The notes beneath the pieces were generated by a model. It was not told the DNA's origin, did no database searches, and saw nothing but the letters and a program-made list of their open reading frames with translations. A stretch of DNA of 64,000 bases from Gracilibacillus sp. YIM 98692 (GTDB lineage Bacteria; Bacillota; Bacilli; Bacillales; Amphibacillaceae), in the NCBI RefSeq assembly GCF_010993965.1, contig NZ_WIXM01000005.1, forward strand, positions 1 to 64,000, given 5' to 3'. The first letter of the stretch is position 1. Each line of letters opens with the position of its first letter. This document shows, one piece after another, positions 5,320 to 22,298 of the stretch. A program made the translations under genes and the position numbers.

Positions 5320-5339
5320 AAAGGAAGGAGTTTGTTGCA

Positions 5340-6125: not shown

Positions 6126-6143
6126 ATATTAGGTCGGTTTGTG

Positions 6144-6190
6144 CCTGTTAGTTCTGCGGATGAAAAAAGTAGAACTGGCAGGTATTTTAT
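6144..6190 (+). terminator. Terminator after cysQ
   Basis: CCTGTTAGTTCT (6144-6155) pairs with AGAACTGGCAGG (6171-6182), allowing a G-T pair, and is followed by TATTTTATTA. It ends the sulfate operon. Confidence 0.65.
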
Positions 6191-6349
6191 TATGACATAT
6201 TAAGACGCGGGTCTAGTAATTTTGCCCGTGAAACCTCTCTCTAGGATTCTACGAATAATATAAGGTATAATAACATAGTCTTGTTTTGTAAAATGGTCTA
6301 TTAAAGTTATTTAGTTTTATATGTATGTTTACATATGGGAGGGAATCCT

Positions 6350-7090
6350 TTGAAGCAAAATATTTATGACCATCCTGTTTTCTTTAAAGAATACACGTCT
6401 TTACGTAAAAGTAGTGTCACTTATAACGATTTTATCGAACAACCAGCGATAAAATCAGAAATTTCAACACTCCGTGATAAATCTATTTTGGATTTAGGAT
6501 GTGGAACAGGTGAATTTGCAATGTATTGCATGGAGAATGGTGCAGCTAAAGTAGTCGGAGTGGATATTTCCGAAAATATGATAGAACAGGCTAAAAGGGA
6601 AAATCACCATGAGAACATAGAATATATTTGTATGCCAATAGAAGATTTGGCATTAGAAAATCAGAAATTTGATATTATTATAAGCTCCTTGGCCGTTCAT
6701 TATATTGAGGATTATACAAGTCTTGTGGTGAAGGTAAATGATTGGTTAAAACATAATGGAGAATTCATTTTTTCAACAGAGCATCCGATCGTAACTGCTC
6801 GAAAAGAGGGAAATAATTGGGTAAAAGATGAGGATGATCATAAATTACATTGGGCGTTAGATCATTATCAAGAAGAAGGGAAAAGAGAGCAGCATTGGTA
6901 TATTGATGGGGTCGTTAAATACCATAGAACCATTTCGACATTGGTCAATACCCTTATAGAGAATGGATTAGTACTAGAAAAAATAACAGAGCCACAGTCT
7001 ATTCCTGATGGATTAGAGAGAATGCCTAAATTAGTAAATGAAAAACGGAGACCGTCTTTTATTGTGATGAAATCTAGGAAAAATAAGTGA
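6350..7090 (+). CDS. Class I SAM-dependent methyltransferase
   Basis: About 246 residues with a Rossmann-type core: motif I ILDLGCGTGEF, the acidic end of strand 2 (VVGVDIS), and a post-motif II region FDIIISSLAVHYIED. The family methylates small molecules or tRNA; the substrate cannot be told. I prefer the TTG at 6350 because GGGAGGG lies just upstream; an ATG at 6335 overlaps that ribosome site and has none of its own. It appears to be a single-gene unit with a hairpin after it. Confidence 0.8.
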   Translation: MKQNIYDHPVFFKEYTSLRKSSVTYNDFIEQPAIKSEISTLRDKSILDLGCGTGEFAMYCMENGAAKVVGVDISENMIEQAKRENHHENIEYICMPIEDLALENQKFDIIISSLAVHYIEDYTSLVVKVNDWLKHNGEFIFSTEHPIVTARKEGNNWVKDEDDHKLHWALDHYQEEGKREQHWYIDGVVKYHRTISTLVNTLIENGLVLEKITEPQSIPDGLERMPKLVNEKRRPSFIVMKSRKNK

Positions 7091-7110
7091 ATGTTATGCT
7101 TTATGCCGGT

Positions 7111-7148
7111 GCTATTCTGACAAGAAAAGGAGTAGCTCTATTTTTAAT
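7111..7148 (+). terminator. Terminator-like hairpin after the methyltransferase gene
   Basis: GCTATTCT and AGGAGTAGC form a bulged stem followed by TCTATTTTTAA, 25 bp after the stop codon. The stem is imperfect. Confidence 0.45.
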
Positions 7149-7166
7149 AGAATGGTGTAAACTTAC

Positions 7167-7234
7167 GGATAAATCCTTAAAACTTTAGGATAAATCAAAA
7201 TAGTCACGGATAAAATATCAAAACTTCCGGATAA
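7167..7234. repeat. Phased GGATAA word array (four copies, ~20.7 bp period)
   Basis: GGATAA occurs at 7167, 7188, 7208 and 7229, steps of 21, 20 and 21 bp. Text between the words is AT-rich and only loosely similar (AAAACTT or CAAAACTT before some). The step is about two turns of B-DNA. No gene lies here. Confidence 0.55.
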
Positions 7235-7255
7235 CAGGAGGGTACATAGTTGTAT

Positions 7256-7290
7256 AAAAAAAGACTGCAAACTAAGCGTGATGCAGCCTA
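7256..7290 (-). terminator. Minus-strand terminator of the small membrane protein gene
   Basis: Read on the minus strand, GGCTGCA pairs with TGCAGTC (one G-T pair) and is followed by seven Ts (plus positions 7256-7262). Confidence 0.6.
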
Positions 7291-7301
7291 ATGAGATTTC
7301 C

Positions 7302-7508
7302 CTATGAATTTTTATCTTTCATGAACTGTAAATGATTCGAAATATCTCTTAAAATTGCATTCTTTTCTTTTTGTGTTTTCATAAAAGCAACCGCAAACCA
7401 AATGACTAGACCAATCATCACGATCGAAAAAATAAAAGGTAAGATAGCGAACAAACCAAACAAGTTCATCGAATTATTAGCTGACTCTTGCACAACAGTA
7501 TCTGACAT
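7302..7508 (-). CDS. Small single-pass membrane protein, unknown function
   Basis: The 68-residue product starts MSDTVVQ, with GGAGGTGA at ideal spacing; a GTG at 7523 would bury that ribosome site and is rejected. One membrane segment spans about residues 17-41 (LFGLFAILPFIFSIVMI...), followed by a charged tail KTQKEKNAILRDISNHLQ. Its own ribosome site and terminator argue that it is a real gene. I do not recognise a family. Confidence 0.65.
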   Translation of the reverse strand: MSDTVVQESANNSMNLFGLFAILPFIFSIVMIGLVIWFAVAFMKTQKEKNAILRDISNHLQFMKDKNS

Positions 7509-7606
7509 ATGTATCACCTCCACAGTTAATATATTAACAAATATTCCCTTTTATTAATAGCCAATAGTGTACTAACTTATTCTTCCAAGAATGTAATAAT
7601 TAGCAT

Positions 7607-7715
7607 GAGCGCATATTCATCTTTTTCGCGCTTTCCCTTATATCAATGTGCTCTCGTATCTCATTTATGCTCTCTTATCTCCATCAAGTGCTCTCTGATC
7701 AAAATTTACGCTCTT
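7607..7715. repeat. Phased GCTCTC/GCGCTT word array (~20.6 bp period)
   Basis: GAGCGC at 7607 is followed by the reverse-complement-type words GCGCTT (7628), GCTCTC (7650, 7669, 7690) and GCTCTT (7710); steps are 21, 22, 19, 21 and 20 bp. The same word order recurs at 23104-23210. No coding region lies in this gap. Confidence 0.6.
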
Positions 7716-7760
7716 TCCCCATATGTGTGTGTAAGGTGCTAAACCTTCATCTAAAAATAG

Positions 7761-7804: not shown

Positions 7805-8770
7805 ATGGCAACGATAAAAGATGTTGCGAAGCTAGCGGGTGTAGGAATTAGCACGGCTTCGCGAGTTATTAATAAATCTGGATATGTGAGTGAAAGTACA
7901 AAAACGAAAGTCCAAGATGCTATTAATAAATTAGGATATGTTCCCAATGAAACGGCTAGAGCATTTGTGACCCAAGATAATAAAATTGTGGCACTATTTT
8001 TACCATCGATTCATCACGCTTTTTTCTCTGAACTTGCTTATTATATTGAAGATGAATTGGATAAAAACGGTTACAAGATGCTCTTATGTAACTCTACTGG
8101 CAACATTCAGAAAGAACTGAGCTATATCAGTATGCTTAAGCAGAACAAAGTATCTGGTATTATCGGGATTTCTTATAACGAAATTGAAAATGAAATTCAT
8201 AATTCGATGCCAATTGTGTTGGTAGACCGTCATATTGGATCGATACCTTATGTATCTAGTGATAATTACGGCGGGGGAAAGATCGCTTTTCAAGTATTAA
8301 AGGACACGGGATGTCAGCATCTTGCTTATATTGGATCTTATTCAAACCATGTACTAACTGAAGTAGAAAAACGACAAAAAGGGTTTGAAGATGCAGCAAA
8401 AGAAGATGGAATGGATTATGTCATCTATACAGAAGAAGATCCGATTAAAGATCAAACAGCATTTTTAAAGCGATTTCTAACTCAATATAAAAACGTCGAT
8501 GGGGTTTTTGCTGAGAATGATCTTATGGCATTAGAGCTTTTTGAACTTGCCAAGGAACAAAATATTAAAGTTCCCGAAGAGCTGTCTATTATAGGTTATG
8601 ATGGCATTAAAGTTTATGAAGTGTTAAAATCAAAAATTTCATCGATCAGACAACCAGTAGAAGTAATGGGAAGAAGTTTGGTGGAATTATTAATCAAAAG
8701 AATAAATGGTTCTTATGTAACGCCAGTTATACATCCGGTTGAATTTGTGAAAGGGGAAACAACGCGTTAA
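7805..8770 (+). CDS. LacI family regulator of the fructan locus
   Basis: The 321-residue protein starts with a classic LacI helix-turn-helix (TIKDVAKLAGVGISTASRVIN, residues 3-23, plus hinge helix to about 55). A periplasmic-binding-like sensor domain follows, with IIGYDG near the C-terminus. It sits just upstream of a sugar importer and two GH32 genes in the same direction. Three matching operator-like sites (7761, 8833, 8891) suggest it represses itself and the operon until a fructose-containing sugar binds. The inducer is inferred from the GH32 neighbours. Confidence 0.9.
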   Translation: MATIKDVAKLAGVGISTASRVINKSGYVSESTKTKVQDAINKLGYVPNETARAFVTQDNKIVALFLPSIHHAFFSELAYYIEDELDKNGYKMLLCNSTGNIQKELSYISMLKQNKVSGIIGISYNEIENEIHNSMPIVLVDRHIGSIPYVSSDNYGGGKIAFQVLKDTGCQHLAYIGSYSNHVLTEVEKRQKGFEDAAKEDGMDYVIYTEEDPIKDQTAFLKRFLTQYKNVDGVFAENDLMALELFELAKEQNIKVPEELSIIGYDGIKVYEVLKSKISSIRQPVEVMGRSLVELLIKRINGSYVTPVIHPVEFVKGETTR

Positions 8771-8792: not shown

Positions 8793-8821
8793 TTGACAAT
8801 ACGAAGGGGATTATATATACT
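8793..8821 (+). promoter_or_regulatory. Sigma-A promoter of the fructan importer operon
   Basis: TTGACA (8793-8798) and TATACT (8816-8821) are 17 bp apart. The first operator (8833) begins right after the expected start point. Confidence 0.7.
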
Positions 8822-8832
8822 AAACTCAAAGA

Positions 8833-8846
8833 TGGAAACATTTCCA
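8833..8846. promoter_or_regulatory. Operator 1 of the fructan operon
   Basis: TGGAAACATTTCCA is a near-perfect palindrome at about +7 of the predicted transcript, where LacI-type repressors block initiation. It shares TGGAAAC with operator 2. Confidence 0.6.
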
Positions 8847-8890: not shown

Positions 8891-8904
8891 TGGAAACGTT
8901 TTCT
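8891..8904. promoter_or_regulatory. Operator 2 / cre-like site of the fructan operon
   Basis: TGGAAACGTTTTCT lies between the promoter and the lipoprotein start at 8925. It matches operator 1 and also the loose cre consensus, so it may bind the local LacI protein, CcpA, or both. It is 58 bp from operator 1. Confidence 0.55.
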
Positions 8905-8924: not shown

Positions 8925-10241
8925 ATGAAAAATATAATTAGTTTTCTGATGATCTTGTTGATTTTCTTGGCATTAGTTGCATGTTCTAACTCATCAAATA
9001 ATGCTTCTGAAAACAGTGATGCAGAAGAGGAAGTAAAAGAGTTGGAAGTATGGGTACATGTTCCTGCTGATGACCCAGAAGGAGAAAACTATGATGTGAG
9101 AGCGAAAGAATTCGAAGAAGCTCATGAAAATGTAGACGTGACGGTAGAACATATCGTCAAAACAGGGGGAGGCAGCGGCTATAATGATCGGGTCAATGCA
9201 GCGATCACTACTGGAGAACTGCCAGACATTATTGCATTAGAGAGCGTATATACTGCTTCTTATACGGATTCTGACATTCTATTACCGCTGAATGAATATT
9301 TGGATGAAGCAACATTTGATTCCTACCTGGATACGATCATTTCAGCTGGCAGTGTAGGAGATAATATTTACGCCTTGCAATCTTTTGATTTATCATCACC
9401 CGTTTTCTATAACGAGGATTTATTTGAAGAAGCAGGCATTGAGGTGCCAGCAGATGAAAATGGCAATTGGACATTGGATTTAGCTTGGAGTTATGAAGAA
9501 TTTTTAGAGAATGCGAGAAAGCTTAAAGATCACATGGGACAAGAACCTGTCCACATGTTTACCGAAAATAACGGTTGGCATATGTATGCACATTCCCCTA
9601 TTATTTTTTCCAATGATGCGAGAATGGTCGGAGAAAATGGTCTTGATACAGAAGGTTATTTAGATAGCAATAATACAAAGGAAGCATTACAATTCATAGA
9701 CACATTATTTAGAGATGGCATTGTAGCTTCCACTACTAGAGAAGATGCCTTTGCTTTAGAGGAAGCGGCGATCAGTTTTGAAGGACCATGGATGGTGGAT
9801 GTATTTGAAAATGAGTATCCAGAATTGAATTGGTCGATCATGCCTTATCCGTATGGTAAAGATGGGCATCAATCAGCACCGCATGGCAGCTGGTATATCG
9901 CAGCAACGCAAAACACAGAATATCCAGAACTGTCAGCTGAGCTAGTAGCACATTTAACAAACAAAGATAGTGCGGTCAAAATGGAAGAAGAAGCTGGATT
10001 AATTCCAGGTCATCAGGAGTTGCTAGATTCCTCCGAAACATATAGTGATTATCCAAGAAAGCTTATGTTAGATCAGTTAGTCAATACGAACCATCTGAAG
10101 CCAAAATCCCCTATTTTCCCAGTGTTGGAAGATGCACTTGGTGACATTATGGAAGGAATTGCATTAGATAATGGATCACTCGAAAGTCTCATTAATGATG
10201 CGAAGGAAAAAGTAGAGCGTGAGGCAGATAGGTTTAAGTAA
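8925..10241 (+). CDS. Sugar ABC transporter substrate-binding lipoprotein (fructan locus)
   Basis: A 438-residue extracellular binding protein with a lipoprotein signal (hydrophobic residues 4-19, lipobox LVAC, Cys20), then an acidic linker and a type-1 solute-binding fold (EVWVHVP... near the start, ITTGELPDIIALES near 95). It should deliver fructo-oligosaccharides to the two permeases encoded next. GAGGAGG precedes the ATG. It is the first structural gene after the regulated promoter; the ligand is inferred from the GH32 genes downstream. Confidence 0.9.
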   Translation: MKNIISFLMILLIFLALVACSNSSNNASENSDAEEEVKELEVWVHVPADDPEGENYDVRAKEFEEAHENVDVTVEHIVKTGGGSGYNDRVNAAITTGELPDIIALESVYTASYTDSDILLPLNEYLDEATFDSYLDTIISAGSVGDNIYALQSFDLSSPVFYNEDLFEEAGIEVPADENGNWTLDLAWSYEEFLENARKLKDHMGQEPVHMFTENNGWHMYAHSPIIFSNDARMVGENGLDTEGYLDSNNTKEALQFIDTLFRDGIVASTTREDAFALEEAAISFEGPWMVDVFENEYPELNWSIMPYPYGKDGHQSAPHGSWYIAATQNTEYPELSAELVAHLTNKDSAVKMEEEAGLIPGHQELLDSSETYSDYPRKLMLDQLVNTNHLKPKSPIFPVLEDALGDIMEGIALDNGSLESLINDAKEKVEREADRFK

Positions 10242-10306
10242 GGATTAGAAAATAGTGAGTGTACGCTAAGCCGTACACTTCCTATTCCATCAAAGGAGTA
10301 TTTGTT

Positions 10307-11212
10307 ATGCATAATCTCAAGCAAAAGATGAAACAGAATAAAACTCTTGATTTTATTTTTAGTGGAAAAATATTATTTTTGCTTCCGGCTTTTACACTGA
10401 TCAGTATCTTTGTTATTTATCCACTAATGTTAGCCGTTGGTTATTCTTTTACTGATTATTATTTGCTGAAACCAAATGATATATCTTTTGTTGGATTTGA
10501 TAACTACATGGAAATAGCTTATGACAAATATGCTAAGAAGGCTTTCTTTAATTCAGCGAAATACGTTATTTATATTGTGCCATTACAGGTTATTTTATCT
10601 TTATTTTTGGCCACTTTGATTGCGAAAAAGTCCAAAACGAACACACTTTTTCGAACGGCTTTCTTTTCACCATATATTTTGTCTATTATCGTTGTTTCCT
10701 TATTGTGGAAAAATATCTTAGATCCCAATTCAGGAATTGTAAACGAATTTTTGGCTTCATTAGGTTTTGCGAAACAAGAGTTTTTCTCTGACCCAAATTT
10801 GGCACTCCCGACCATTTCCTTCATTATTCTTTGGCAAGGGATCAGTTTTCAGATGTTAATCTTAATGGCTGCTCTTCAGGATATACCATCTTCTCTTTAT
10901 GAAGCAGCTTCTATGGAAGGGGCAAATGCTTGGCAGAAATTCAAACATATTACGCTTCCTAGTATAAAAGGTCAGGTCGTATTTGTACTAATTGTCGTAA
11001 CTACAGGAACTTTTAAAATCATCATTGAACCTTTAGTTTTAACAAATGGCGGACCACAAGGCAGTACATCAAGTATTCTTCTATATATGTTTGAACAAGG
11101 AACAAGGTATCGTCAAATAGGTTATTCCAGTGCCATCACTGTGATTTTTGCCTTCATCTTGATTTTCATTGCCTTTGTTCAAAGAAAGCTAGTAAAGGAG
11201 GAAGAAGGGTGA
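10307..11212 (+). CDS. Sugar ABC transporter permease, MalF type (fructan locus)
   Basis: A 301-residue CUT1 permease with about six membrane segments and the ATPase-contact EAA loop YEAASMEGANAWQKFKHITLP in its second half. The ATG at 10307 follows AAAGGAG by about 8 bp; a longer reading from 10259 lacks a ribosome site. It overlaps the next permease gene by 4 bp. It pairs with that permease to form the import channel. Confidence 0.9.
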   Translation: MHNLKQKMKQNKTLDFIFSGKILFLLPAFTLISIFVIYPLMLAVGYSFTDYYLLKPNDISFVGFDNYMEIAYDKYAKKAFFNSAKYVIYIVPLQVILSLFLATLIAKKSKTNTLFRTAFFSPYILSIIVVSLLWKNILDPNSGIVNEFLASLGFAKQEFFSDPNLALPTISFIILWQGISFQMLILMAALQDIPSSLYEAASMEGANAWQKFKHITLPSIKGQVVFVLIVVTTGTFKIIIEPLVLTNGGPQGSTSSILLYMFEQGTRYRQIGYSSAITVIFAFILIFIAFVQRKLVKEEEG

Positions 11213-12051
11213 AAGGGTTTACGGTCATTCGTTTATTAAAATATATCGTATTAATCGCCTTTGCTATTTTGTTCTTATTTCCCACTGTTTGGATGTTTGT
11301 GAGCAGTACAAAAACCGTGGCGGAAATTTCAGAAGAGATAGGTTCGATACAAAGCTTTATACCGAACTTCAGTAATATTCAAAATTGGTTAGTGCCTTAC
11401 CAAGAAATGTTTAGCCGATTTAATTTCTCGATCCATTTCTTTAACAGTGTTTTTTACACTTTTGTTATTGTATTCGGAAGCTTATTAGTGAATTCACTGG
11501 CAGGATATGCTTTAGCTGTATTTGATGTACCCTTTAAAAAGTTTATTACAGGCGCTTTAATTATTTTAATTATTTTCCCATTTCAATCTGTATTTATTCA
11601 AATTTTTATCATTATCAATCAATGGAATCTGACAAATACAGTTTGGGGATTAGCGCTTCCTCATATTGGAAGTGCCTTTTATATTTATCTGTTTATGGTA
11701 TTTTTTCAAAAAATCCCTAAAGAACTAAGGGAATCTGCCTATATAGATGGAGCATCTAATTGGAAGATATTCACCAAAATAGTGATACCAATCTCCAAAC
11801 CTATTTTTATGACCATTGGTATATTAGTTTTTGTCGGTGCCTGGAATGATTATGTTTGGCCGCTAATGGTTTTTACAGAAGAGAGTAAATATCCATTATC
11901 AGTTGCGGTAAATATTATGAATGAAACAAAGCCTGCTTATTTAAACCAAGTTATGGCAGGATTAACTGTTACCACTATTCCGATTCTATTAGTCTATATT
12001 ATGGGGCAAAAATACATTACTCCTCAGAATTCTTCATCTGGGATTAAATAA
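11209..12051 (+). CDS. Sugar ABC transporter permease, MalG type (fructan locus)
   Basis: A 280-residue CUT1 permease of the inner pair. The GTG start at 11209 overlaps the previous stop and follows AAAGGAGGAAG. The EAA loop reads RESAYIDGASNWKIF. Six membrane segments are evident. No ATPase gene is present in the locus, so a shared MsmX-like ATPase is expected to energise it. Confidence 0.9.
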   Translation: MKGFTVIRLLKYIVLIAFAILFLFPTVWMFVSSTKTVAEISEEIGSIQSFIPNFSNIQNWLVPYQEMFSRFNFSIHFFNSVFYTFVIVFGSLLVNSLAGYALAVFDVPFKKFITGALIILIIFPFQSVFIQIFIIINQWNLTNTVWGLALPHIGSAFYIYLFMVFFQKIPKELRESAYIDGASNWKIFTKIVIPISKPIFMTIGILVFVGAWNDYVWPLMVFTEESKYPLSVAVNIMNETKPAYLNQVMAGLTVTTIPILLVYIMGQKYITPQNSSSGIK

Positions 12052-12064
12052 TGAGAGGTGTGTT

Positions 12065-14272
12065 ATGAGTCTAATATATGATCTTCCTTTTCGTGAAGGA
12101 AAAGGTAATCAAACAAAAGAAGCGATTCGCGGCAATATATTGCCCATTCATTATGTATTCAATCATGCAAAATATAAAGCAAATTGTTCTCCTAATTGGG
12201 TGGAATCACCTGTTTCTGGATATGCAGTGGACTTTGATGGTTATTCCACTTATATCCAAGATCAACCTTTAGAAGTGAATGGATCTTTTTCTATATCAGC
12301 CTTTCTTGCACCTAGGTGCTTTGAAGCATGTCACGGGGATGTACCTACTACTATAATTGATCAGCTTGATCCGTCGAGTCAACAAGGATTCGCTTTAAGT
12401 ATTTTCCGTCATGGGGAAGTGCAATTCGAATTAGGTGATGGCAGAAATATTTATCGATTTAGAACCGATAGACAACTTGAATTGTTTATAAAATCTTTCC
12501 TAACGGTGACATTTAACCAAGAAGAACACTCCGTTACGATTTATATAAATGGAAAGAAGGAAATAGAAAGTACAAACATCAAACATTTCCGGCCTGCTGA
12601 TATCGCGTTATCCATCGGGTTAAATAATCACCCATTTGAGATTAGTGACGTGTTTAAAGGTGGTATGTTTGCTGGACTGATAGATTTTATAAAGGTATAT
12701 AATCATGCACGGACAGATAAGGACATTCATAAAGAATATGAGAAAATACGTGACAAGCGATCAGTGCCATTAGAAGATATCGAGCTCGATGAACAAAAAC
12801 TATTAGATGATGTACATCGCCCTCAATATCATGCCATTCCTCCGCAACATTGGATGAATGAGCCACATGCTCCTTTTTACTATAAAGGGAAATATCACTT
12901 ATTCTATCAGAAAAATGCATCTGGTCCTTATTTTTCCCATTTACATTGGGGACATTGGACAAGTGATGATTTAGTATTTTGGAAAAATGAAAAAACGGCT
13001 CTCTTTCCGCAAAAGGGAGATTTGACACCATCGGGGGTATGGTCTGGTTCCGCCACCATAGGGCCGAATAACACGCCTTATCTTTTCTATACCTTTGCTA
13101 ATTTCAACAAAACATACAATCAAGGTGTAGCAATTGCTCGTCCAGAAAATATAGAAGATATCCATTTAGTTGATTGGAAAATGGAACCACAAGGAGCCAT
13201 TTATCAAACCGATCAACAAGGAATGCCTGCACAATTTCGAGATCCATTTGTTTGGAAAGATGAAACAGAAGAAAAATGGTATTTGATCATTGGAGGCGGT
13301 GTGAAAGATAAAGGGCCTACAGCTTGGGTATATACATCCACTGATTGTGAGAATTGGGATTTTGAAGGGGAATTATTTTCAGTAGATAGCAGTCTTTATC
13401 CATACCTCGGAACCAATTGGGAGCTCCCTGTTTTATTACCAGTACGTGATCAGCAGGGGCAAGTGAAGTATGCCTTTATTTTTATGAGTTTCTTTGATGA
13501 TGAATCGAAATACGAAGTGGATACCTATTATTATTTGGGAGAATTCGATAAGCAAAAAGTCGAATTTATTCCGGATACAAAAGAACCGCAATTAATGGAT
13601 TACGGTCGGTTTAAATTCAGCGGCCCAAGTGGATTTGTCGATCCTGTTACAAATAAAACGATTGTTTTCTCCATTCTTCAAGGAGATCGAAACGAACAAG
13701 AAGAATATGATGCAGGATGGGCCCACCACGCAGGACTGCCCATTGAGTTATTTTTGGAAAATCAGGAGTTACGCATTCAACCTTTAGAAAATTTAGCTTC
13801 ATTAAGACAAGAGCTGTTAGTCCATGAAAACAATAAGTCTATGGAAGAAGTCAATCATAAATTGAAAAACATTCATGATAAAATGCTTGAGATCTTGATT
13901 GAATTTGAAGAAACAGAGAATCTAGTTGGACTAGAGTTAAAGAAGGATCCTACTAACCAAGAAAAAACAAAGCTTCTTTTTGATAAAGCAATCGAAAAAG
14001 TTTGGCTGGATAGAACGGAAAGCAGAAAGGATAAAGAGGGCGATATTCAAGGCGGACCACTAAAACTGGATGAAGGTTTGAAAGCCCATATTTTTATTGA
14101 TCATTCTGCGGTGGAATGTTATTTGAATCAGAAAAAGATGATTTCCAGCAGAGCCTACCCTGTATTACCTAATAGTGATTATCTATCCATTATTGGTAAC
14201 ACGGATACTAGAATTAAATCTATCAAAATTTTTAAACTACAATCTATTTGGAAAAACGAAAGAGATGAGTGA
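12065..14272 (+). CDS. Cytoplasmic GH32 fructan-active enzyme with variant nucleophile motif and N-terminal LamG-like domain
   Basis: The 735-residue protein has no signal peptide. Residues 1-235 form a LamG/concanavalin-like domain; residues 258 to about 565 form a GH32 five-bladed propeller; a C-terminal beta-sandwich follows. The motif that is normally WMNDPNG reads WMNEPHAP, placing Glu266 where GH32 enzymes have the nucleophile Asp. The other catalytic positions are present: Asp393 in FRDPF and Glu453 in WELP (usually WECP or WEMPDL). It closely resembles the first catalytic half of the secreted protein at 16308. It may be a transferase or an exo-enzyme with unusual linkage preference; activity cannot be told. 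Confidence 0.85.
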   Translation: MSLIYDLPFREGKGNQTKEAIRGNILPIHYVFNHAKYKANCSPNWVESPVSGYAVDFDGYSTYIQDQPLEVNGSFSISAFLAPRCFEACHGDVPTTIIDQLDPSSQQGFALSIFRHGEVQFELGDGRNIYRFRTDRQLELFIKSFLTVTFNQEEHSVTIYINGKKEIESTNIKHFRPADIALSIGLNNHPFEISDVFKGGMFAGLIDFIKVYNHARTDKDIHKEYEKIRDKRSVPLEDIELDEQKLLDDVHRPQYHAIPPQHWMNEPHAPFYYKGKYHLFYQKNASGPYFSHLHWGHWTSDDLVFWKNEKTALFPQKGDLTPSGVWSGSATIGPNNTPYLFYTFANFNKTYNQGVAIARPENIEDIHLVDWKMEPQGAIYQTDQQGMPAQFRDPFVWKDETEEKWYLIIGGGVKDKGPTAWVYTSTDCENWDFEGELFSVDSSLYPYLGTNWELPVLLPVRDQQGQVKYAFIFMSFFDDESKYEVDTYYYLGEFDKQKVEFIPDTKEPQLMDYGRFKFSGPSGFVDPVTNKTIVFSILQGDRNEQEEYDAGWAHHAGLPIELFLENQELRIQPLENLASLRQELLVHENNKSMEEVNHKLKNIHDKMLEILIEFEETENLVGLELKKDPTNQEKTKLLFDKAIEKVWLDRTESRKDKEGDIQGGPLKLDEGLKAHIFIDHSAVECYLNQKKMISSRAYPVLPNSDYLSIIGNTDTRIKSIKIFKLQSIWKNERDE

Positions 14273-14278
14273 TTCAAT

Positions 14279-15778
14279 ATGAAAATCAATACGAAAAAGA
14301 CAAACGAGACTTACCGACATCATTATCATCTAATGCCGGAATACGGCTGGATGAATGATCCTAATGGCTTTTCCTTTTTTAACAATAGATATCATTTATT
14401 TTATCAGTATTACCCGTATGATACTGTTTGGGGGCCAATGCATTGGGCTCATGCTGTTAGTGATGATTTAATGAAATGGGATCATGAAAAAATCGCTTTA
14501 AAACCTGATAAAAGTTATGACAAAAATGGTGTTTTCTCAGGATCAGGGCTTCAAGTAGGGAATGAACATTGGTTGTATTATACCGGGCATACTGATTCGT
14601 TCCTCGATATTTTATATGATCAAGATTTGAAAAAGAAAGAGGGGGTGATAGAAAGCGAAGAAGTTGTTCCTTATATTAGACAGGTTCAATGTTTAGCCAA
14701 GTCAGCGGATGGTATCACATATGAAAAATATGAACATAATCCAGTCATTTCTTCCCAACAGGTTCCCGCCAACATAAGAATGGAAGATTTCCGAGATCCA
14801 AAAGTTTGGAAGCATCATGATCGATTCTATATGATAGTTGGAGCAAAGAGTCATGAGGATGTTGGACATGTTTTATTTTACCAGTCTAATGATGGTGTCA
14901 CGTGGGAATATTTAAATCAACTCTCTCTAGGTCCAGCGTATGGAACGGCATGGGAATGCCCGGATTTAATTGAATTAGATGGAAAGCATGTGTTGATTTT
15001 TTCTCCTCAAGAAATTCCGCGTATCGGGTATCGTTATGAAAACATTCATTCTACGATGGCATTAATCGGAGAGTTCCATTATGAGACAGGTGAATTCATA
15101 GTGGAAAACGAACAGGAACTGGACCAAGGCTTCGACTTTTACGCTCCGCAAACTACCTTGTCTGAAGAAGGAAAACGGGTGATGGTTGCTTGGATGAATA
15201 TGTGGGATATGGAATATCCTTTACATTTACTAGGACATGGGTGGAATGGTTCCATGACACTGCCGCGAGAACTATCGTTGAAAGATGGAAAGCTTATTCA
15301 AAAACCGTATCATAAAATAGACAAATATAGAGAGAAAAAGATAGAGTGGAGTCATTTTAGCATAAAAGATGATTATATGAATGATAGGTTACTTGGGAAT
15401 TGTCAGCAAATGGAACTTCAATTTCATATGGATGATAGTGATTATTTTAGCATGGAATTTTTTAAAGGGGACCGAGAAAAAATCTTATTAAGCTTTGATA
15501 AATCTAGGAATGAAATAGTCCTAGATCGGCGAAATGCTCAATTCCCTATTAAAAATTTAGTGATCCATAATGATTTTACGAGAAGTCAGTTTATAGATTT
15601 AAATCAGAAAGTTAAGCTAAACATTTTTTTAGATGTTTCTTCGATCGAAATTTTTGTGAATGATGGGGAACACGTATTTACTTCATTATTCTTTTCAAAA
15701 GAATTAGGAGAGCAAGTGTTGCTTCATTCAGAAGGTAAGACACATATCGATGAATTGATCAAGTGGGAACTTAGCTAA
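14279..15778 (+). CDS. Cytoplasmic GH32 beta-fructosidase (sucrose-6-phosphate hydrolase / fructan hydrolase type)
   Basis: A 499-residue canonical GH32 enzyme without signal peptide. The nucleophile is Asp27 in WMNDPNG, the transition-state Asp173 lies in FRDPK, and the acid/base Glu226 in WECPDL. A C-terminal beta-sandwich completes the usual length of about 490. It should release fructose from imported oligofructosides or sucrose. The gene starts 6 bp after the preceding GH32 gene, so the two are made together. No PTS gene is near, so unphosphorylated oligosaccharides are the likelier substrate. Confidence 0.9.
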   Translation: MKINTKKTNETYRHHYHLMPEYGWMNDPNGFSFFNNRYHLFYQYYPYDTVWGPMHWAHAVSDDLMKWDHEKIALKPDKSYDKNGVFSGSGLQVGNEHWLYYTGHTDSFLDILYDQDLKKKEGVIESEEVVPYIRQVQCLAKSADGITYEKYEHNPVISSQQVPANIRMEDFRDPKVWKHHDRFYMIVGAKSHEDVGHVLFYQSNDGVTWEYLNQLSLGPAYGTAWECPDLIELDGKHVLIFSPQEIPRIGYRYENIHSTMALIGEFHYETGEFIVENEQELDQGFDFYAPQTTLSEEGKRVMVAWMNMWDMEYPLHLLGHGWNGSMTLPRELSLKDGKLIQKPYHKIDKYREKKIEWSHFSIKDDYMNDRLLGNCQQMELQFHMDDSDYFSMEFFKGDREKILLSFDKSRNEIVLDRRNAQFPIKNLVIHNDFTRSQFIDLNQKVKLNIFLDVSSIEIFVNDGEHVFTSLFFSKELGEQVLLHSEGKTHIDELIKWELS

Positions 15779-15810
15779 CCATAAAGGGGTGAGTGTATAA
15801 ACACCGCTCC

Positions 15811-15917
15811 AGAAATATACTTCGCTTTCCGGGGGCACGGCTTCAGCTTCCTCGGCAGCAAGCTGCCTGCGGGATCTTCAGCTCGCGCTGTTCCCCCAGG
15901 AGTCTACGTATATTTCT
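15811..15917 (+). repeat. Palindromic element A1 (forward copy of a pair)
   Basis: A ~107-bp element bounded by AGAAATATAC and its exact complement GTATATTTCT. The interior carries the family signature: CGCTTTCCG, CTTCAGCTTCCTCGG, GGGATCTTCAG and CAGGAGTC. It is paired with the inverted copy A2 in the gap 15779-16307, which otherwise holds only the cre box before the next gene. Confidence 0.8.
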
Positions 15918-15977
15918 TCCGCTGATGTGAAGTGAAAATCATGATTATTTCTCACTCAAAACGAGCACTGATCCAAG

Positions 15978-16095
15978 CTGCGGAAAAATGCGAGACTCCT
16001 GTGGGAAAGGAACAGTCTGAAGACCCCGCAGCGAGCGTTTTTTGCTCGTGAGGAGGCTGAAGCGTTCCCCACGGAAAGCGAGTGTTTTTCCGCAG
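15978..16095 (-). repeat. Palindromic element A2 (inverted copy of a pair)
   Basis: A 118-bp element bounded by CTGCGGAAAAA and TTTTTCCGCAG. It carries the family signature in reverse (GACTCCTGTGGG ... CGGAAAGCGAG). A short tract GATTAAGCACTC follows it, and its complement also precedes copy A3. Confidence 0.8.
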
Positions 16096-16258
16096 CGACG
16101 ATTAAGCACTCATCTTTAAACGAGTGGGAGGAAAATATTTATAAGTTATTTCGCCGTTTATGGATTATGTGCAATTAGGCTTATTATAAAAAGCAACAGT
16201 TTTTTAGAAAACAGTCTTAAAATAAGTTTGAGTTGTTTAGTTTTTTAATGAATTTAAA

Positions 16259-16272
16259 TGAAAGCGTTTTAT
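16259..16272 (+). promoter_or_regulatory. cre box before the secreted double GH32 gene
   Basis: TGAAAGCGTTTTAT fits the CcpA consensus TGWAARCGYTWWCA except near its end. It lies 36 bp before the start codon, so carbon catabolite repression of the secreted enzyme is likely. Confidence 0.55.
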
Positions 16273-16307
16273 TTTAGTTTAACACAAAGAGGAGGAAAGG
16301 AAAAAAG

Positions 16308-19300
16308 ATGATTAAACAGATTAGTATATGTTTTATGATAATCTTGCTTTATTGCAGTCATTGGATGATTTCAGAAAATATAACGGTTGTAAAAGCTGCC
16401 AATACCATTACAAACCCAGGATTTGAAACAGGGGACTTGTCAGGTTGGGAGATCGTCGATGGCACAGCTTTTACGGACGCAGATATCAGCTCGGATTCAG
16501 AGTATTGGGACAAACAATCCTTTAATCAACGTAATTTCTGGCATATTTGGGGAGGAAGAGGAGACAATTCGAAAGTTGGCGTGATGCAAAGTGAGACTTT
16601 TACGCTTGGAGGAGATGGACAAATAGATTTTCTTACTGGAGGTGACAATGATTTAGATAATCTATATGTTGCCTTAGTAAGAGAATCAGATGGAGAAGAA
16701 TTGATGAAAGCAACCGGTACAGGCACAGACACTTACAGTAGGGTGGAATGGGATGCATCAGCACATACTGGTACTGTCGTTCGAATAAAAATCGTGGATA
16801 ATAGTACAGAAGGGCATATCAATCTAGATGATGTAAATGTACCGCCAACTCCGTCCTTACATGAGCATATTGAACCGTCGATCTATAACCATGATTTTGA
16901 GTATACAGCATTACCACCGAATGAAATAAGAGGGTGGGAAGTGGTGAGTGGTGATGCATTTGGCCCCGATAGTTTAGTCCATGAAAATGAATGGAGCCAA
17001 GGGGATATGTTTCATCATGAAGGGGATTACCATTTGTGGAGTTTTCAAGATGGTGGTGATGCACCAACAGGTGAATTGCATTCTGAAACCTTTACACTAG
17101 ATGGGTCAGGCGGCATCGATTTTCTGATTAGCGGTGGTGAAGATGAAGAAAACTTATATGTGGCGTTAGTAAGAGAATCCGATGGAGAAGAGCTATTTAA
17201 AGAAACAGGGCGAAATACAGAAAAATATCAAAGGGTGTTTTGGGATGCATCCAAATATATAGGGGAAGCAGTCTATATAAAAATTATAGATAATGCAACA
17301 GGTGATTGGGGACATATAAATGTCGATGACTTCCATGTGTACAATTCTGTATATGATCAGGATTTAATTGGTTATTGGAATTTGGACGAAGGCACAGGAA
17401 AAGTCACGACAGAACAGGTATCAGGCATACAAAACCCAGTGGATTATCATTTGAATGAAGGCGCTTTCCAAACTTCACAAGATCCATTGTGGCGAAGTGA
17501 CGGGATTTCCAATAGCGCTTTATTGTTTGATGGATATTCTACTTGGGTGACACAAACTCCGGATAAATTCCCTGCACCGGATAGCGCCATCACAGTGGAA
17601 GCATGGGTAGCACCACGTAATTTCGAACATGGTGATGAAGGCAGGTTATCCGCTATTGTCAATCAGCATGATCGGGAAGAAAAAGAAGGATTCATTTTAG
17701 GTAATTTTCGCCATGGCACTTGGGGCCTTAAGTTCGGAACTGGATCAGATTGGTATGAAGTCATGTCCGATACACTTTTACCTTTAAAAGAGTGGTCCTA
17801 TATAGCGGCAACGTATGATAGTGCATCAGGGGAAGCCGTTCTTTATCAAAATGGTAAAAAAGTAGCTTCACGAGATTTCCCTGCTGGCCAAAAGATGAAA
17901 CCAAGCGTGAAAGATTTATTAATTGGTAAAAACAATGATGGCATGTGGTTATATGGATATGATTTAAATATGTTCAGTGGTTTAATAGATGAGGTGAAAA
18001 TTTACAATCAAGCATTAAGTGCAACAGAAATTCAGAATGCTTATGATTCATATCTAAGTCATTTGAATGGCAATTTACCCACTCCAGATATGAAAATGGA
18101 TAGAAGTATTCTGGCAAATGATAAACATCGTCCGCAATTTCATATGTCACCTCCAAACCATTGGGGAAATGAACCGGGAGGACCTATTTATTTTAATGGA
18201 CAGTACCATGTGTTTTATCAAAGTAATCCAAGAGGACCTTTTTGGAATCATATTCGTTGGGGACATTTAGTGAGCGATGACATGGTACATTGGCGAGATG
18301 TGGATGATGCTGTGATACCAGGTAAACATGATGTGGATCCTGATGGTGCCTGGGCTGGCGGAGCTGTCGTGGATGATAATGATGTACCGGTTATTTTTTA
18401 TACCGCAGGAGATGATCGTGATTTTCCTAATCAGCGGATTAACATTGCGAGAAGTACTTATCCAGAAGATGGGGATAATGATTTAAATCGATGGGAAAAG
18501 AACCAGGAAGTAATATTAGAACAGCAAGAGGGAGAGGGAATTCAAGGAGAATTTCGCGATCCATTTGTTTTTAAAGATGGAGATACATGGTATATGCTGG
18601 TGACTTCAGGGAAAGAGGATGAAAATGGCGATCCTATTGGAGGTACAGCACTTGTATACTCCACGAAAGATTCTAGCTTTGAGAATTGGACATTTGAGGG
18701 AGATTTATTTGTAGGAGATTATGATCAGTATCCCAAAACAGGCCGTGTATGGGAATTGCCAATATTACTGCCATTGGGAGACAGTGGAAAGTATATCTTT
18801 TTAATGAATCCTGCTAAAACATCCAGACAAGAATATCAATCGAGATACACCTATTATTGGATTGGAACTTGGGATCCGGATACAGCTCGTTTTATTCCTG
18901 ACAAGGAAGAGCCCACTTTATTAGATGTTGGGGAGCATTTTACTGGTCCAGCAGGTATGGTAACTCCAGATGGAAGAACGGTTATTCACAGCATAACGCA
19001 GGGACGAAGACCTGGTAATGATGATTATGATGCTGGCTTTGCTCATAATTATGGATTACCGCTAGAGGTTTCCTATCGATCAGATGGTAAATTGGGAATG
19101 CAGCCTATTCAAGAGCTGGAACAATTAAGAGGGGAACAATTAGTTGATATTACCTCAGATACATCATTTGACGATGCGAATCAGATTCTTTCTTCTGTAA
19201 ATGGAGATATGTTGGAAATTGAATTAGAGATAGATCATGGCTCTGCTAATGAAGCGGGGATTAGTTTAAGACGTTCACCAAATGGAGAAGAAGAAACGAT

Positions 19301-22298
19301 CGTGTATCACAAAGAAAGTAGCCAAGAACTCTGGATAAATCGTTTGAAATCCAGCCTTGATCCGGATGTGGAAAAATGGTATCAAGGTGGAAACGCAGAT
19401 ATAGGGACAGATAATATTAAACTTCATATTTATGTGGATCGTTCAGAGATTAATGCGTATTTAAATGGATTAAAAGGTTTAACGACAAGAGCATATCCAA
19501 CTCGCGATGATGCGACTGGATTAAAGCTTTGGGCAAATGATAATAGGGATACTGTTGTAGTTAAATCACTTAAGGTTTGGGAAATGAATTCGGCCTATAC
19601 CCCTGTAAAGGCTGCAGGAGTTTCGTTAAGTCCGAGTAGTATGGAGTTAATAGAAGGGGATAGTGAATTACTCACAGCTACTGTTACACCGTCTGATGCA
19701 ACGAATAAAGAAGTGATTTGGACATCGGATAATCCATCGATTGCTACCGTTGTAAATGGTAAAGTAACAGCACATGCTGAAGGAAACGCTACCATAACAG
19801 CGAAAACAAGAGATGGAGGATTTACCGCAACTAGCAACATCAATGTCGTACCTGAACCAGAACATGATGAGTTAGTCAATCATGATTTTGAAACACCTGA
19901 TTTATCAGGGTGGACGATATTGAGTGGAGACGCCTTTACGGATTTAGACGTGACAAGTGCAGACGACTGGGGATGGGGTGGACCATTTAATCATCAAGGA
20001 AACTATCATTTATATAGTATTGATGAAGGCGATGATTCACAAGTTGGTGAGATTCGTTCCCAAAAGTTCATCCTGGGAGGTAATGGACAAATAGATTTTC
20101 TAGTGTCGGGTGGAAATAATATTTATGATTTGTATGTGGCACTAGTGAGAGATTCTGATGGTAAAGAGCTAATGAAGGCAAGTGGTGGAGATCGAGAAGG
20201 ATATACACGTGTTCATTGGGATGCTTCGGAGTATATAGGGGAGAAGGTTTATATAAAGGTGGTCGATCAAGCTACTGGTTCTTGGGGACATATTAACATT
20301 GATGATGTAAATGCTCCGGTGCAGCCCCCTGAGAAATATGATATCACCAATGCCAATTTTGAAAGTGGAGATTTAACAGGCTGGCAAATCGTGAGTGGAG
20401 ATGCATTCAGTAATCAAGATGTCACAACAGATACAGAGTGGGGATGGGATTGCTGCTTCAATCACGAAGGAGATTATCATTTATGGAGTTTTAAAGATGG
20501 CGGTGATAGTCAGGTTGGAGAATTGCAATCCGAACATTTTACACTACGCGGAAGCGGATGGATTGACTTTTTAATAAGTGGTGGAAAAGATATTGATAAT
20601 TTATATGTATCCTTAATTCGAGCATCTGATGGGGATGAACTATTTAAAGCAACTGGCTCAGAAGAGGAAGAATATCACAGAGTGTATTGGGATGCTTCAG
20701 ATTATGTAGGAGAAGAAGTTTTTATTAAAATAGTAGATAATGTCACGGGTGATTGGGGGCATATCAATATCGATGATTTTAACGTATATAACACAGAAAC
20801 GGATGTCACAACAAGTGATCGTTATCAGCAGTATCGCTCTAGCTTTCATTTTACCCCCGACAAGAAGTGGATGAATGATCCGAATGGTTTGGTTTATCAT
20901 GATGGGGAATATCATCTTTTTTATCAGTATAATCCCACTAGCACGACATGGGGCCCGATGCATTGGGGACATGCTGTGAGTACGGATTTAGTAAATTGGG
21001 AGCGGCTTCCTATGGCATTGGAAAAAGATGAAAAGGGTTTCATTTGGTCAGGAAGTGCCGTTATCGATAAAAATAATACAGCTGGATTTGGGGAAAATGC
21101 AATGGTCGCAATGTTTACCCATGAAGAAGGCGGTGAGCAAAGCCAGAGCTTAGCATATAGTACAGATAAAGGAAGAACTTGGTCAAAATATACAGGCAAT
21201 CCTGTCATCGATAATACGGAAAATCTCCCAGTATTTAGAGATCCGAAAGTATTCTGGCACGAAAATTCCAATAAATGGGTGATGTTACTCGCAGCAGAAA
21301 ATGATGCACAAGAACAATTTGTCCAAATATATACATCTCCAGACTTGAAAAATTGGTCTTTTGCCAGCGATTTTGGTAAAACAGAGGGATCACATGATGG
21401 CGTATGGGAAATGCCTGATTTATTCGAATTACCGGTTGATGGGGATTCCAATAACACAAAATGGGTGTTACAAGTGAGCTTAAGTGATGGAGCTCCAGCC
21501 AAAGGATCGGGCGTTCAATATTTTATCGGGGAATTTGATGGGGAAACTTTTACGAATGATCACTCATCAGATACTGTCCTCTATTCAGACTTTGGGGCAG
21601 ATTTCTATGCACCATTAACGTTTGAAAATATACCTTCTCATGATGGAAGACGTATCGAGATGGGGTGGATGAACAATTGGAATTATGGGCAAAGCATTCC
21701 TACATCCATTTGGAGAGGGAAAATGTCTATTCCTCGTGAATTAAAGTTAAAAAATATTTCTGGACAAGGAATACGTTTGGTTCAGGATCCAGTATCAGAA
21801 TTAGAGGTATTACGTGATCAAGTGGATAGTTGGAATGATGAGACAATATCTCCAGATCAAAACCTATTATCAAACGTTACAGGGACAAATGTTGAGATCG
21901 TTGCTGAATTCCAAACCGATACAGCTACTGCATCTGAGTTTGGATTCAAGGTTAGAACAGGGAATGGTCATGAAACAACGATCGGTTATGATCAAGTAAA
22001 TTCAAAGCTCTTTGTTGATCGCGCTGAATCGGGAAAAGCCCATTTTAGCACCGATTTTAATGTGAGACATGATGCCGATATGTCACCAGATAATAATACA
22101 ATAAGTCTTCATATTTATATGGATCGATCATCGGTTGAAGTATTCGGAAATGATGGTCAAGTCGTCTTTACCAATCAAATATTTCCTGATTTAGACAGTG
22201 ACGGCTTAGATGTATATGCTATAGATGGGGATGTTACCTTAAATTCTTTAGATATTTATCACTTAAAACCAGCAGAAATGGGAAATGAAGGTGGTTAA
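16308..22298 (+). CDS. Secreted 1996-residue fructanase with two GH32 catalytic units
   Basis: Signal peptide: residues 1 to about 31 (cleavage after VKAA). Order of parts: two ~150-residue beta-rich modules (32-182, 192-346), LamG-like domain (353-583), first GH32 unit (from 605) with sandwich domain, Big_2-type domain (1099-1185), two more copies of the ~150-residue module (1188-1338, 1345-1498), and second GH32 unit (about 1510 to the end). The first unit has NEPGGP with Glu622 in place of the nucleophile Asp, plus Asp751 (FRDPF) and Glu816 (WELP). The second is canonical: Asp1524 in WMNDPNG, Asp1645 in FRDPK and Glu1701 in WEMPDL. No LPXTG or SLH anchor is seen. It likely degrades levan or inulin outside the cell to feed the importer at 8925-12051. 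AGGAGG precedes the ATG. Confidence 0.9.
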   Translation: MIKQISICFMIILLYCSHWMISENITVVKAANTITNPGFETGDLSGWEIVDGTAFTDADISSDSEYWDKQSFNQRNFWHIWGGRGDNSKVGVMQSETFTLGGDGQIDFLTGGDNDLDNLYVALVRESDGEELMKATGTGTDTYSRVEWDASAHTGTVVRIKIVDNSTEGHINLDDVNVPPTPSLHEHIEPSIYNHDFEYTALPPNEIRGWEVVSGDAFGPDSLVHENEWSQGDMFHHEGDYHLWSFQDGGDAPTGELHSETFTLDGSGGIDFLISGGEDEENLYVALVRESDGEELFKETGRNTEKYQRVFWDASKYIGEAVYIKIIDNATGDWGHINVDDFHVYNSVYDQDLIGYWNLDEGTGKVTTEQVSGIQNPVDYHLNEGAFQTSQDPLWRSDGISNSALLFDGYSTWVTQTPDKFPAPDSAITVEAWVAPRNFEHGDEGRLSAIVNQHDREEKEGFILGNFRHGTWGLKFGTGSDWYEVMSDTLLPLKEWSYIAATYDSASGEAVLYQNGKKVASRDFPAGQKMKPSVKDLLIGKNNDGMWLYGYDLNMFSGLIDEVKIYNQALSATEIQNAYDSYLSHLNGNLPTPDMKMDRSILANDKHRPQFHMSPPNHWGNEPGGPIYFNGQYHVFYQSNPRGPFWNHIRWGHLVSDDMVHWRDVDDAVIPGKHDVDPDGAWAGGAVVDDNDVPVIFYTAGDDRDFPNQRINIARSTYPEDGDNDLNRWEKNQEVILEQQEGEGIQGEFRDPFVFKDGDTWYMLVTSGKEDENGDPIGGTALVYSTKDSSFENWTFEGDLFVGDYDQYPKTGRVWELPILLPLGDSGKYIFLMNPAKTSRQEYQSRYTYYWIGTWDPDTARFIPDKEEPTLLDVGEHFTGPAGMVTPDGRTVIHSITQGRRPGNDDYDAGFAHNYGLPLEVSYRSDGKLGMQPIQELEQLRGEQLVDITSDTSFDDANQILSSVNGDMLEIELEIDHGSANEAGISLRRSPNGEEETIVYHKESSQELWINRLKSSLDPDVEKWYQGGNADIGTDNIKLHIYVDRSEINAYLNGLKGLTTRAYPTRDDATGLKLWANDNRDTVVVKSLKVWEMNSAYTPVKAAGVSLSPSSMELIEGDSELLTATVTPSDATNKEVIWTSDNPSIATVVNGKVTAHAEGNATITAKTRDGGFTATSNINVVPEPEHDELVNHDFETPDLSGWTILSGDAFTDLDVTSADDWGWGGPFNHQGNYHLYSIDEGDDSQVGEIRSQKFILGGNGQIDFLVSGGNNIYDLYVALVRDSDGKELMKASGGDREGYTRVHWDASEYIGEKVYIKVVDQATGSWGHINIDDVNAPVQPPEKYDITNANFESGDLTGWQIVSGDAFSNQDVTTDTEWGWDCCFNHEGDYHLWSFKDGGDSQVGELQSEHFTLRGSGWIDFLISGGKDIDNLYVSLIRASDGDELFKATGSEEEEYHRVYWDASDYVGEEVFIKIVDNVTGDWGHINIDDFNVYNTETDVTTSDRYQQYRSSFHFTPDKKWMNDPNGLVYHDGEYHLFYQYNPTSTTWGPMHWGHAVSTDLVNWERLPMALEKDEKGFIWSGSAVIDKNNTAGFGENAMVAMFTHEEGGEQSQSLAYSTDKGRTWSKYTGNPVIDNTENLPVFRDPKVFWHENSNKWVMLLAAENDAQEQFVQIYTSPDLKNWSFASDFGKTEGSHDGVWEMPDLFELPVDGDSNNTKWVLQVSLSDGAPAKGSGVQYFIGEFDGETFTNDHSSDTVLYSDFGADFYAPLTFENIPSHDGRRIEMGWMNNWNYGQSIPTSIWRGKMSIPRELKLKNISGQGIRLVQDPVSELEVLRDQVDSWNDETISPDQNLLSNVTGTNVEIVAEFQTDTATASEFGFKVRTGNGHETTIGYDQVNSKLFVDRAESGKAHFSTDFNVRHDADMSPDNNTISLHIYMDRSSVEVFGNDGQVVFTNQIFPDLDSDGLDVYAIDGDVTLNSLDIYHLKPAEMGNEGG

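Follow-up and report, generated by a model that had tools for sequence, protein, structure and literature searches.

Two pairs of GH32 domains in one gene cluster

The window analysed here is a stretch of 64,000 nucleotides (nt) from Gracilibacillus sp. YIM 98692 (contig NZ_WIXM01000005.1, positions 1-64,000), and the genes in question, all on its plus strand, encode four domains of glycoside hydrolase family 32 (GH32), two in a pair of adjacent genes with predicted cytoplasmic products and two in a single protein predicted to be secreted. Each pair joins a variant domain with a Glu nucleophile (Glu type) to a canonical one with an Asp nucleophile (Asp type). A sequence-only reading of this region had proposed a GH32 with NEPHAP and WELP motifs at 12065, an adjacent GH32 with NDPNG and WECPDL at 14279 and a protein at 16308 in which LamG and NEPGGP/WELP precede NDPNG/WEMPDL. 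The open reading frames, motifs and Pfam matches bear out all three proposals, and all four domains (two of them in the 16308 protein) exceed the Pfam cut-offs for GH32N and GH32C.

The first gene of the cytoplasmic pair (12065..14272, + strand) encodes a protein of 735 amino acids (aa) in which a LamG domain (Pfam Laminin_G_3, 12065..12757), previously named for the secreted protein and present here as well, precedes the GH32 N- and C-domains of Glu type (12803..14248; E266, D393, E453) with the motifs WMNEPHAP and NWELPVL. A hydropathy window detected no N-terminal hydrophobic stretch, and the top named matches are the proteins of Gracilibacillus orientalis and G. suaedae (91%). The AlphaFold2 (AF2) model of this protein has a mean predicted local distance difference test (pLDDT) score of 90.9, and its template modelling (TM) scores by target against GH32 structures are 0.74-0.89 in 22 of the first 24 matches and 0.66 in the other two. 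The second gene (14279..15778, + strand) encodes a 499-aa Asp-type GH32 of the ScrB-like clade with the motifs WMNDPNGF and AWECPDL, which passes TIGR01322, the ScrB-like sucrose-6-phosphate hydrolase family, with 421 bits (cut-off 356.4). Between this gene and the next, a large imperfect inverted repeat (15811-16096; arms of up to 44 nt, complementarity 71-80%) may represent a small mobile element or a structure formed in the transcript.

The 1,996-aa secreted protein (16308..22298, + strand) starts with a signal-peptide-like segment, hydrophobic by hydropathy (residues 1-30; 16308..16397), followed by two modules (module 1, residues 32-180, 16401..16847; module 2, residues 190-346, 16875..17345), a LamG domain (Laminin_G_3; 17358..18062), the Glu-type GH32 (18114..19595; E622, D751, E816) with WGNEPGGP and VWELPIL, and one Big_2 copy (19614..19832). 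Two further modules (module 3, residues 1187-1338, 19866..20321; module 4, residues 1344-1495, 20337..20792) lead to the Asp-type GH32 (20820..22274), which carries WMNDPNGL and VWEMPDL and falls in the exo-inulinase/levanase clade; its best PDB sequence relatives are, in order, exo-inulinase 8i12, endo-inulinase INU2 (3rwk) and exo-inulinase 1y4w.

The four modules, of about 150 aa, are related to each other (48, 52 and 53% identity to module 1). No Pfam model matched them above its cut-off, and the comparison of modules 1 and 2 with PDB sequences returned four matches, the best with an E value of 0.18. The AF2 prediction for this pair consists of two all-beta units (pLDDT 83.4; predicted TM score 0.58); in Foldseek the best matches of the whole pair are weak (TM below 0.4), and a single module has one match to a carbohydrate-binding module, 8xmz (TM 0.69 by target). 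CBM38 has been described as residues 32-389 of the cycloinulooligosaccharide fructanotransferase (CFTase) of Paenibacillus macerans, two beta-sandwich domains that bind levan and inulin (PMC10076258). The module pair of the window protein starts at the same residue, 32, and is predicted to be all-beta; the modules are called CBM38-like here. They occur in 17 of 398 genomes of the class, LamG-GH32 proteins of Glu type in 20 of 398 (a scan that scored at most two candidates per genome) and both in 16, a co-occurrence with a Fisher p value of 6e-24 when kinship is ignored. At locus L134 the modules form a separate gene and are not on the Glu-type protein, and in the sole module-bearing genome without a LamG-GH32 Glu match (G099) they lie at C1:850919-851500.

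The variant active site most resembles that of endo-inulinases

The acidic triad of GH32 (nucleophile, Asp of RDP, acid/base Glu) is found in all four domains, with Glu as nucleophile in two. In both variant domains the Asp of WMNDPNG is replaced by Glu, RDP is retained and ECPD has become ELPV or ELPI. Both thus carry the marks described for endo-inulinases (EC 3.2.1.7), namely Glu in motif A (E266, E622) and replacement of the Cys that follows the acid/base Glu; the latter is not exclusive to the Glu type, as the secreted Asp domain reads WEMP. Among 143 aligned GH32 domains of the fetched loci, 78 have NEP (71 with WELP, 4 WEMP, 3 WELV) and 64 have NDP or SDP (61 with ECP, a count that covers WECP, YECP and CECP, 2 WEVP, 1 WEMP), one lacking the N-terminus. 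ECP is therefore confined to the Asp class and WEL to the Glu class, whereas WEMP is seen in both, within the Asp class solely in the secreted domain of the window.

A Glu nucleophile has been reported in the endo-inulinase of Arthrobacter sp. S37, a GH32 enzyme in which the kcat was lowered in E323A and E519A and D460A was inactive (PMC5984348). The same Glu nucleophile, Asp stabiliser and Glu acid/base, assigned in S37 by this mutagenesis, are present in the window, and the S37 nucleophile at residue 323 falls within the range (residues 298-349) of those LamG-GH32 copies that stand alone and begin with a hydrophobic stretch. The Glu copies of the window differ from the S37 enzyme in that one is predicted to be cytoplasmic and the other shares its protein with a second GH32. 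Fungal endo-inulinase has Glu43 in place of Asp and Val234 in place of Cys (PMC13416181; PMC6042768), and our alignment of 3rwk reads WMNEPNG and WEVPD; the Aspergillus ficuum enzyme INU2 (3rwk/3sc7) thus shares with the window the change of nucleophile and the loss of Cys. By contrast, the endo-levanase BT1760 is reported to retain its nucleophile Asp41 (PMC6560043). Because a Glu nucleophile and the loss of Cys are in print for endo-inulinases, the predicted active site of the variant most resembles that of these enzymes.

Since the LamG fold is lectin-like and the nucleophile departs from the GH32 consensus, the cytoplasmic Glu protein could alternatively be a sugar-binding or regulatory relic. 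We regard this as very improbable: E266, D393 and E453 are invariant across 48 hand-chosen, aligned LamG-GH32 proteins, on which grounds the reading as a dead enzyme was rejected, and a Glu nucleophile functions in the S37 endo-inulinase (PMC5984348).

Phylogeny of the GH32 domains

A tree of 131 rows was built by one quick search, with two GH68-type proteins from the host genome as its root. It takes only 15 locus identifiers from the earlier domain set and omits L022 and L131, duplicates of L138 and L025, respectively; in L017 and L020, the N-terminal of the two GH32 domains in each 1,810-aa protein reads NDPNG and was scored as Asp for state changes. It should be noted that 34 of the 127 inner branches are open and that, according to a warning of the program, the Glu clade sits on a long branch that meets the long branch of an Asp row from a haloarchaeon.

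The 73 prokaryotic Glu-type domains form one clade with full support in the SH-like approximate likelihood ratio test (SH-aLRT 100), and the state changes once. INU2 lies outside this clade among the exo-inulinases and, unlike the Glu types of the window, has no LamG domain. Forcing it inside costs 61 log units, and its membership is rejected by the approximately unbiased test (p-AU 0.019); the shared Glu is therefore likely convergent. The sequence-only reading had held that the same two types recur in both compartments. This is upheld for the variant, whose two domains fall in the one well-supported clade, and fails for the canonical type, as the 499-aa protein belongs to the ScrB-like clade and the secreted Asp domain to the exo-inulinase/levanase clade. 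Within the Glu clade the two variant domains of the window are not each other's nearest relatives: the 735-aa protein groups with six orthologues, and the secreted domain with those of L015 and L137, the next to join being two secreted proteins from L023 and L027. The two haloarchaeal Glu copies, one cytoplasmic and one secreted, group as sisters (98); this suggests more than one origin of the inside/outside duplication.

The layout recurs in other bacteria and in haloarchaea

The pair is not unique to the window, as similar layouts are found in other loci. Robertmurraya korlensis (L015) has the full set of orthologues in unchanged order, from the regulator and the transporter through the two cytoplasmic genes to a fusion of 1,996 aa. 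The same parts are present in genome G344 (L137), with the downstream half of the fusion in other frames, and three loci (L017, L019, L020) encode secreted fusions of 1,791-1,810 aa in the reverse order, Asp then Glu. The secreted genes at L137:13374-18999 and L139:15446-19701 appear interrupted, their parts lying in different frames or in separate annotated genes.

In ten of 20 fetched regions, from ten Paenibacillaceae-type genomes (L119-L128, family f19), the trio occurs with its secreted part unfused. There the permeases are followed by an Asp GH32, then a cytoplasmic Glu GH32 and last a secreted module-LamG-GH32 Glu protein (WMNEAHAP), and a LacI gene lies ahead of the permeases in eight of the ten. 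The ten secreted Glu proteins (1,493-2,089 aa) consist of module repeats, LamG, GH32 and a further module. The Asp gene encodes 815-829 aa in six loci and 517-531 aa in four; in L119, the locus scanned with Pfam, it is a PfkB kinase-GH32 fusion (5278-7743), which fits the release of free fructose in the cytoplasm. Genes of similar length are present in L123-L126, L128-L130, L132 and L133. A protein of about 474 aa with partial GH32 and weak GH43 matches is encoded 3' of the secreted Glu gene at L121:16572-17993, and similar genes lie in L120, L122, L124, L125, L127 and L128.

Outside the bacteria, a cluster on plasmid pHTUR01 of Haloterrigena turkmenica comprises a transporter, an Asp GH32, a LamG-GH32 without signal (NEPHAP/WELP), a carbohydrate kinase and a secreted 1,404-aa fusion with a twin-arginine-like start and LamG, in which NEPHGP/WELP precedes NDPNG/WECP. 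A syntenic locus is also present in Natrinema sp. SYSU A 869, where the secreted gene is annotated as two pieces. Further GH32 genes were seen in the fetched loci: secreted Asp-type proteins of about 1,250 aa with SASDPNG replacing WMNDPNG (L011:15987-19775, L012:15318-19124, L078:5816-9556), and two very large divergent genes on a Catenovulum adriaticum plasmid (L140:4855-14548), the product of one sharing 34% identity with a secreted Glu protein of the Paenibacillaceae type across 85% of the latter. Three tandem GH68-like genes lie near an anchored Glu protein in L017, L018, L020, L021, L026 and L078 (Pfam was run on L017:12534-13877 alone).

Seventeen of the 20 sampled Glu-type genomes have a copy without an N-terminal hydrophobic stretch, and in all 17 at least one such copy has an Asp GH32 no more than about 1.1 kb away (17 of 18 copies; genome G273 was read through L011, which has matching coordinates). 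A secreted Glu copy is also present in 12 of these 17 genomes. In the loci of relatives of the 735-aa protein, an Asp GH32 is found within 2.5 kb on the same strand at 45 of 64 judged Glu genes; 52 of the 64 have a hydrophobic N-terminus, many of them lipoprotein-like, so that the cytoplasmic form is outnumbered in these loci. Of 31 Asp GH32 places remote from Glu genes, 4 have another within 3 kb. Because it recurs in related loci, the pairing is more than chance. That bacteria and an archaeon both have the inside/outside pair, with Asp partners from different GH32 clades, further suggests that the pairing itself has been selected. The claim that two GH32 types are paired in both compartments thus holds beyond the window, around an importer of the ATP-binding cassette (ABC) type, in Bacillaceae, Paenibacillaceae-type genomes and a haloarchaeon.

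Regulator and transporter genes of the locus

The genes upstream of the cytoplasmic pair, also on the plus strand, encode a LacI-family regulator (7805..8770; Pfam LacI and Peripla_BP_3), a solute-binding protein with a lipoprotein-like start (8925..10241; SBP_bac_1) and two ABC permeases (10259..11212 and 11209..12051; BPD_transp_1). Read by eye, a promoter-like TTGACA-N17-TATACT (8793..8821, + strand) precedes the transporter operon, followed by the candidate operator TGGAAACATTTCCA (8833..8846), with a similar site at about 8891-8904. TGGAAACATTTCCA is also present 5' of the solute-binding protein gene in all five loci inspected (L011, L012, L014, L015, L016). The strict pattern of the catabolite-responsive element (cre) has no match in the window. 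Co-regulation of the secreted gene through a LacI operator was considered and not retained, as inspection by eye showed no more than a weak cre-like stretch ahead of that gene.

In the host genome (4.37 Mb in 69 contigs), the GH32 N-domain family has ten matches, of which one is weak and falls in a gene that Pfam assigns to GH68. On contig C8 (L086:5050-10966), two divergent GH68-type genes, one called by Pfam and the other by similarity, adjoin a third LamG-GH32 Glu protein, which is membrane-anchored and 803 aa long.

A proposed division of labour laid out twice around an importer

From domains, residues, clades, gene order and recurrence we infer endo and exo modes, substrate and flow of material. 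The cluster is probably a fructan-utilisation locus in which the same division of labour between endo- and exo-acting enzymes is laid out twice, around the ABC importer, and its substrate is most probably an inulin-type fructan. Outside the cell, the four CBM38-like modules of the 1,996-aa protein would hold the polymer, its Glu domain, with a site of endo-inulinase/CFTase type, would cut or transfructosylate internal bonds and its Asp domain would trim chain ends. The ABC transporter would take up the oligosaccharides, the LamG-GH32 of the same Glu clade would open or shorten the imported material inside and the 499-aa GH32 would free fructose. The earlier suggestion that both activities act in sequence on one polymer is plausible on these grounds.

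Several points weigh against this reading. Location was called from the hydropathy window alone, which also flagged the PfkB-GH32 fusions; these were counted as cytoplasmic because PfkB begins at residue 1. The exo action of the secreted Asp domain is not secure, because its Cys is lost (WEMP; WEVP in L015) as in INU2, and INU2 is its second-best PDB match. The proposed kinship of the Glu clade to the S37 endo-inulinase or to CFTase rests on motif and architecture; the triad spacing of 127/60 and 129/65 residues in the window is near, not equal, to that of S37 (137/59), and the S37 motifs are printed in garbled form, WMNDEPNGL and ECMP, which makes the retention of its Cys uncertain (PMC5984348). 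The statement that a cytoplasmic Glu gene always lies beside an Asp GH32 is weakened, since it holds in 17 of 17 sampled genomes but, in the loci of relatives of the 735-aa protein, no more than half of the Glu genes that lack a hydrophobic N-terminus (6 of 12) have an Asp GH32 within 2.5 kb on the same strand. Finally, in 5 of the 17 genomes the cytoplasmic Glu copy has no secreted counterpart.

Levan also stays among the candidate substrates, in view of the membrane-anchored Glu copies that adjoin GH68 genes. The Glu types would then be beta-2,6 endo-enzymes, and the pair would serve levan that is partly self-made, as the anchored Glu proteins of the host genome and of Neobacillus-type genomes adjoin GH68 or GH68-like genes. 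GH68 enzymes, however, can make inulin as well as levan. The neighbourhood of levB and sacB is reported to be similar (PMC11540611), but the endo-levanase BT1760 keeps its Asp (PMC6560043) and the change to Glu has been reported for endo-inulinases; we therefore consider levan an unlikely substrate.

A cytoplasmic endo-type enzyme needs a reason, which could be the import of long chains or of substrates without a free end. In the latter case, a special one that overlaps the division of labour proposed above, the secreted Glu domain would be a CFTase making cyclic inulo-oligosaccharides, and the rings would be imported, opened by the cytoplasmic Glu homologue and digested as open chains by the Asp GH32. 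CFTases, reported from Bacillus and Paenibacillus, release rings of 6-8 units (PMC4835578) on which an exo-enzyme finds no end, and for this reason we give the cyclic route real weight. It is consistent with the module pair of the window protein, which is predicted to be all-beta and starts at residue 32 like the CBM38 that accompanies GH32 in Paenibacillus/Bacillus CFTases, with the architecture of the ten Paenibacillaceae-type secreted proteins and with the secreted copy in 12 of 17 genomes. Nevertheless, the likeness to CFTase was judged by description, the secreted site of the window reads WGNEPGGP and not WMNEAHAP as in those ten proteins, and the five genomes with a cytoplasmic copy alone do not fit. 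The window protein, unlike CFTase, has a second, Asp-type GH32 behind, which might compete for the same chains, and any cyclisation by it is putative. Given this site and the fused Asp domain, plain endo/exo digestion fits at least equally well, and the cyclic route remains a tentative alternative, on the doubtful side. Slightly more doubtful still is the analogy-based proposal of a dedicated trio for cyclic fructans (a secreted CFTase-like enzyme, a private ABC importer and a cytoplasmic lineariser of the same Glu clade that would supply the Asp-type enzyme) built separately in Bacillota and haloarchaea.

Comparison with known systems

The sequence-only reading had assumed that a single canonical type is the usual state of known fructan loci. 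This does not agree with the Bacteroides loci (BT1759, BT1760, BT1765 and kin), which have exo-GH32s together with a surface endo-levanase, or endo-inulinases; as here, an endo-GH32 acts at the surface and exo-GH32s lie further in, and the available part of the source mentions no second cytoplasmic endo-type enzyme (PMC5967196). In the open-access literature, the matches listed contained no title on bacterial use of CFTase-made cyclic fructans and no family of Glu-nucleophile LamG-GH32 proteins, and the PMC titles and abstract starts among them described neither a mirrored pair nor a cytoplasmic Glu-type enzyme. No plasmid annotation among the matches listed (40, 15 and 15) names a CFTase, and no match listed for prokaryotic Glu-nucleophile LamG-GH32 proteins, including the best 50 of 446 good ones, is so named. 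Each part of the locus is of a known kind.

Taken together, these loci give the outline of a GH32 clade in prokaryotes that combines a Glu nucleophile with a LamG domain at the N-terminus. CFTases are known for making cyclic fructans, and the loci name a specific cytoplasmic candidate for the use of the rings. In the breakdown of starch by way of cyclodextrin glucanotransferase, cyclodextrin uptake and cyclodextrinase, related endo-type enzymes likewise stand on both sides of an importer. The parallel is an analogy only, with fructan in place of starch and a hypothetical cyclic intermediate; if the cyclic reading is true, the system described here would be to fructan what the cyclodextrin route is to starch.

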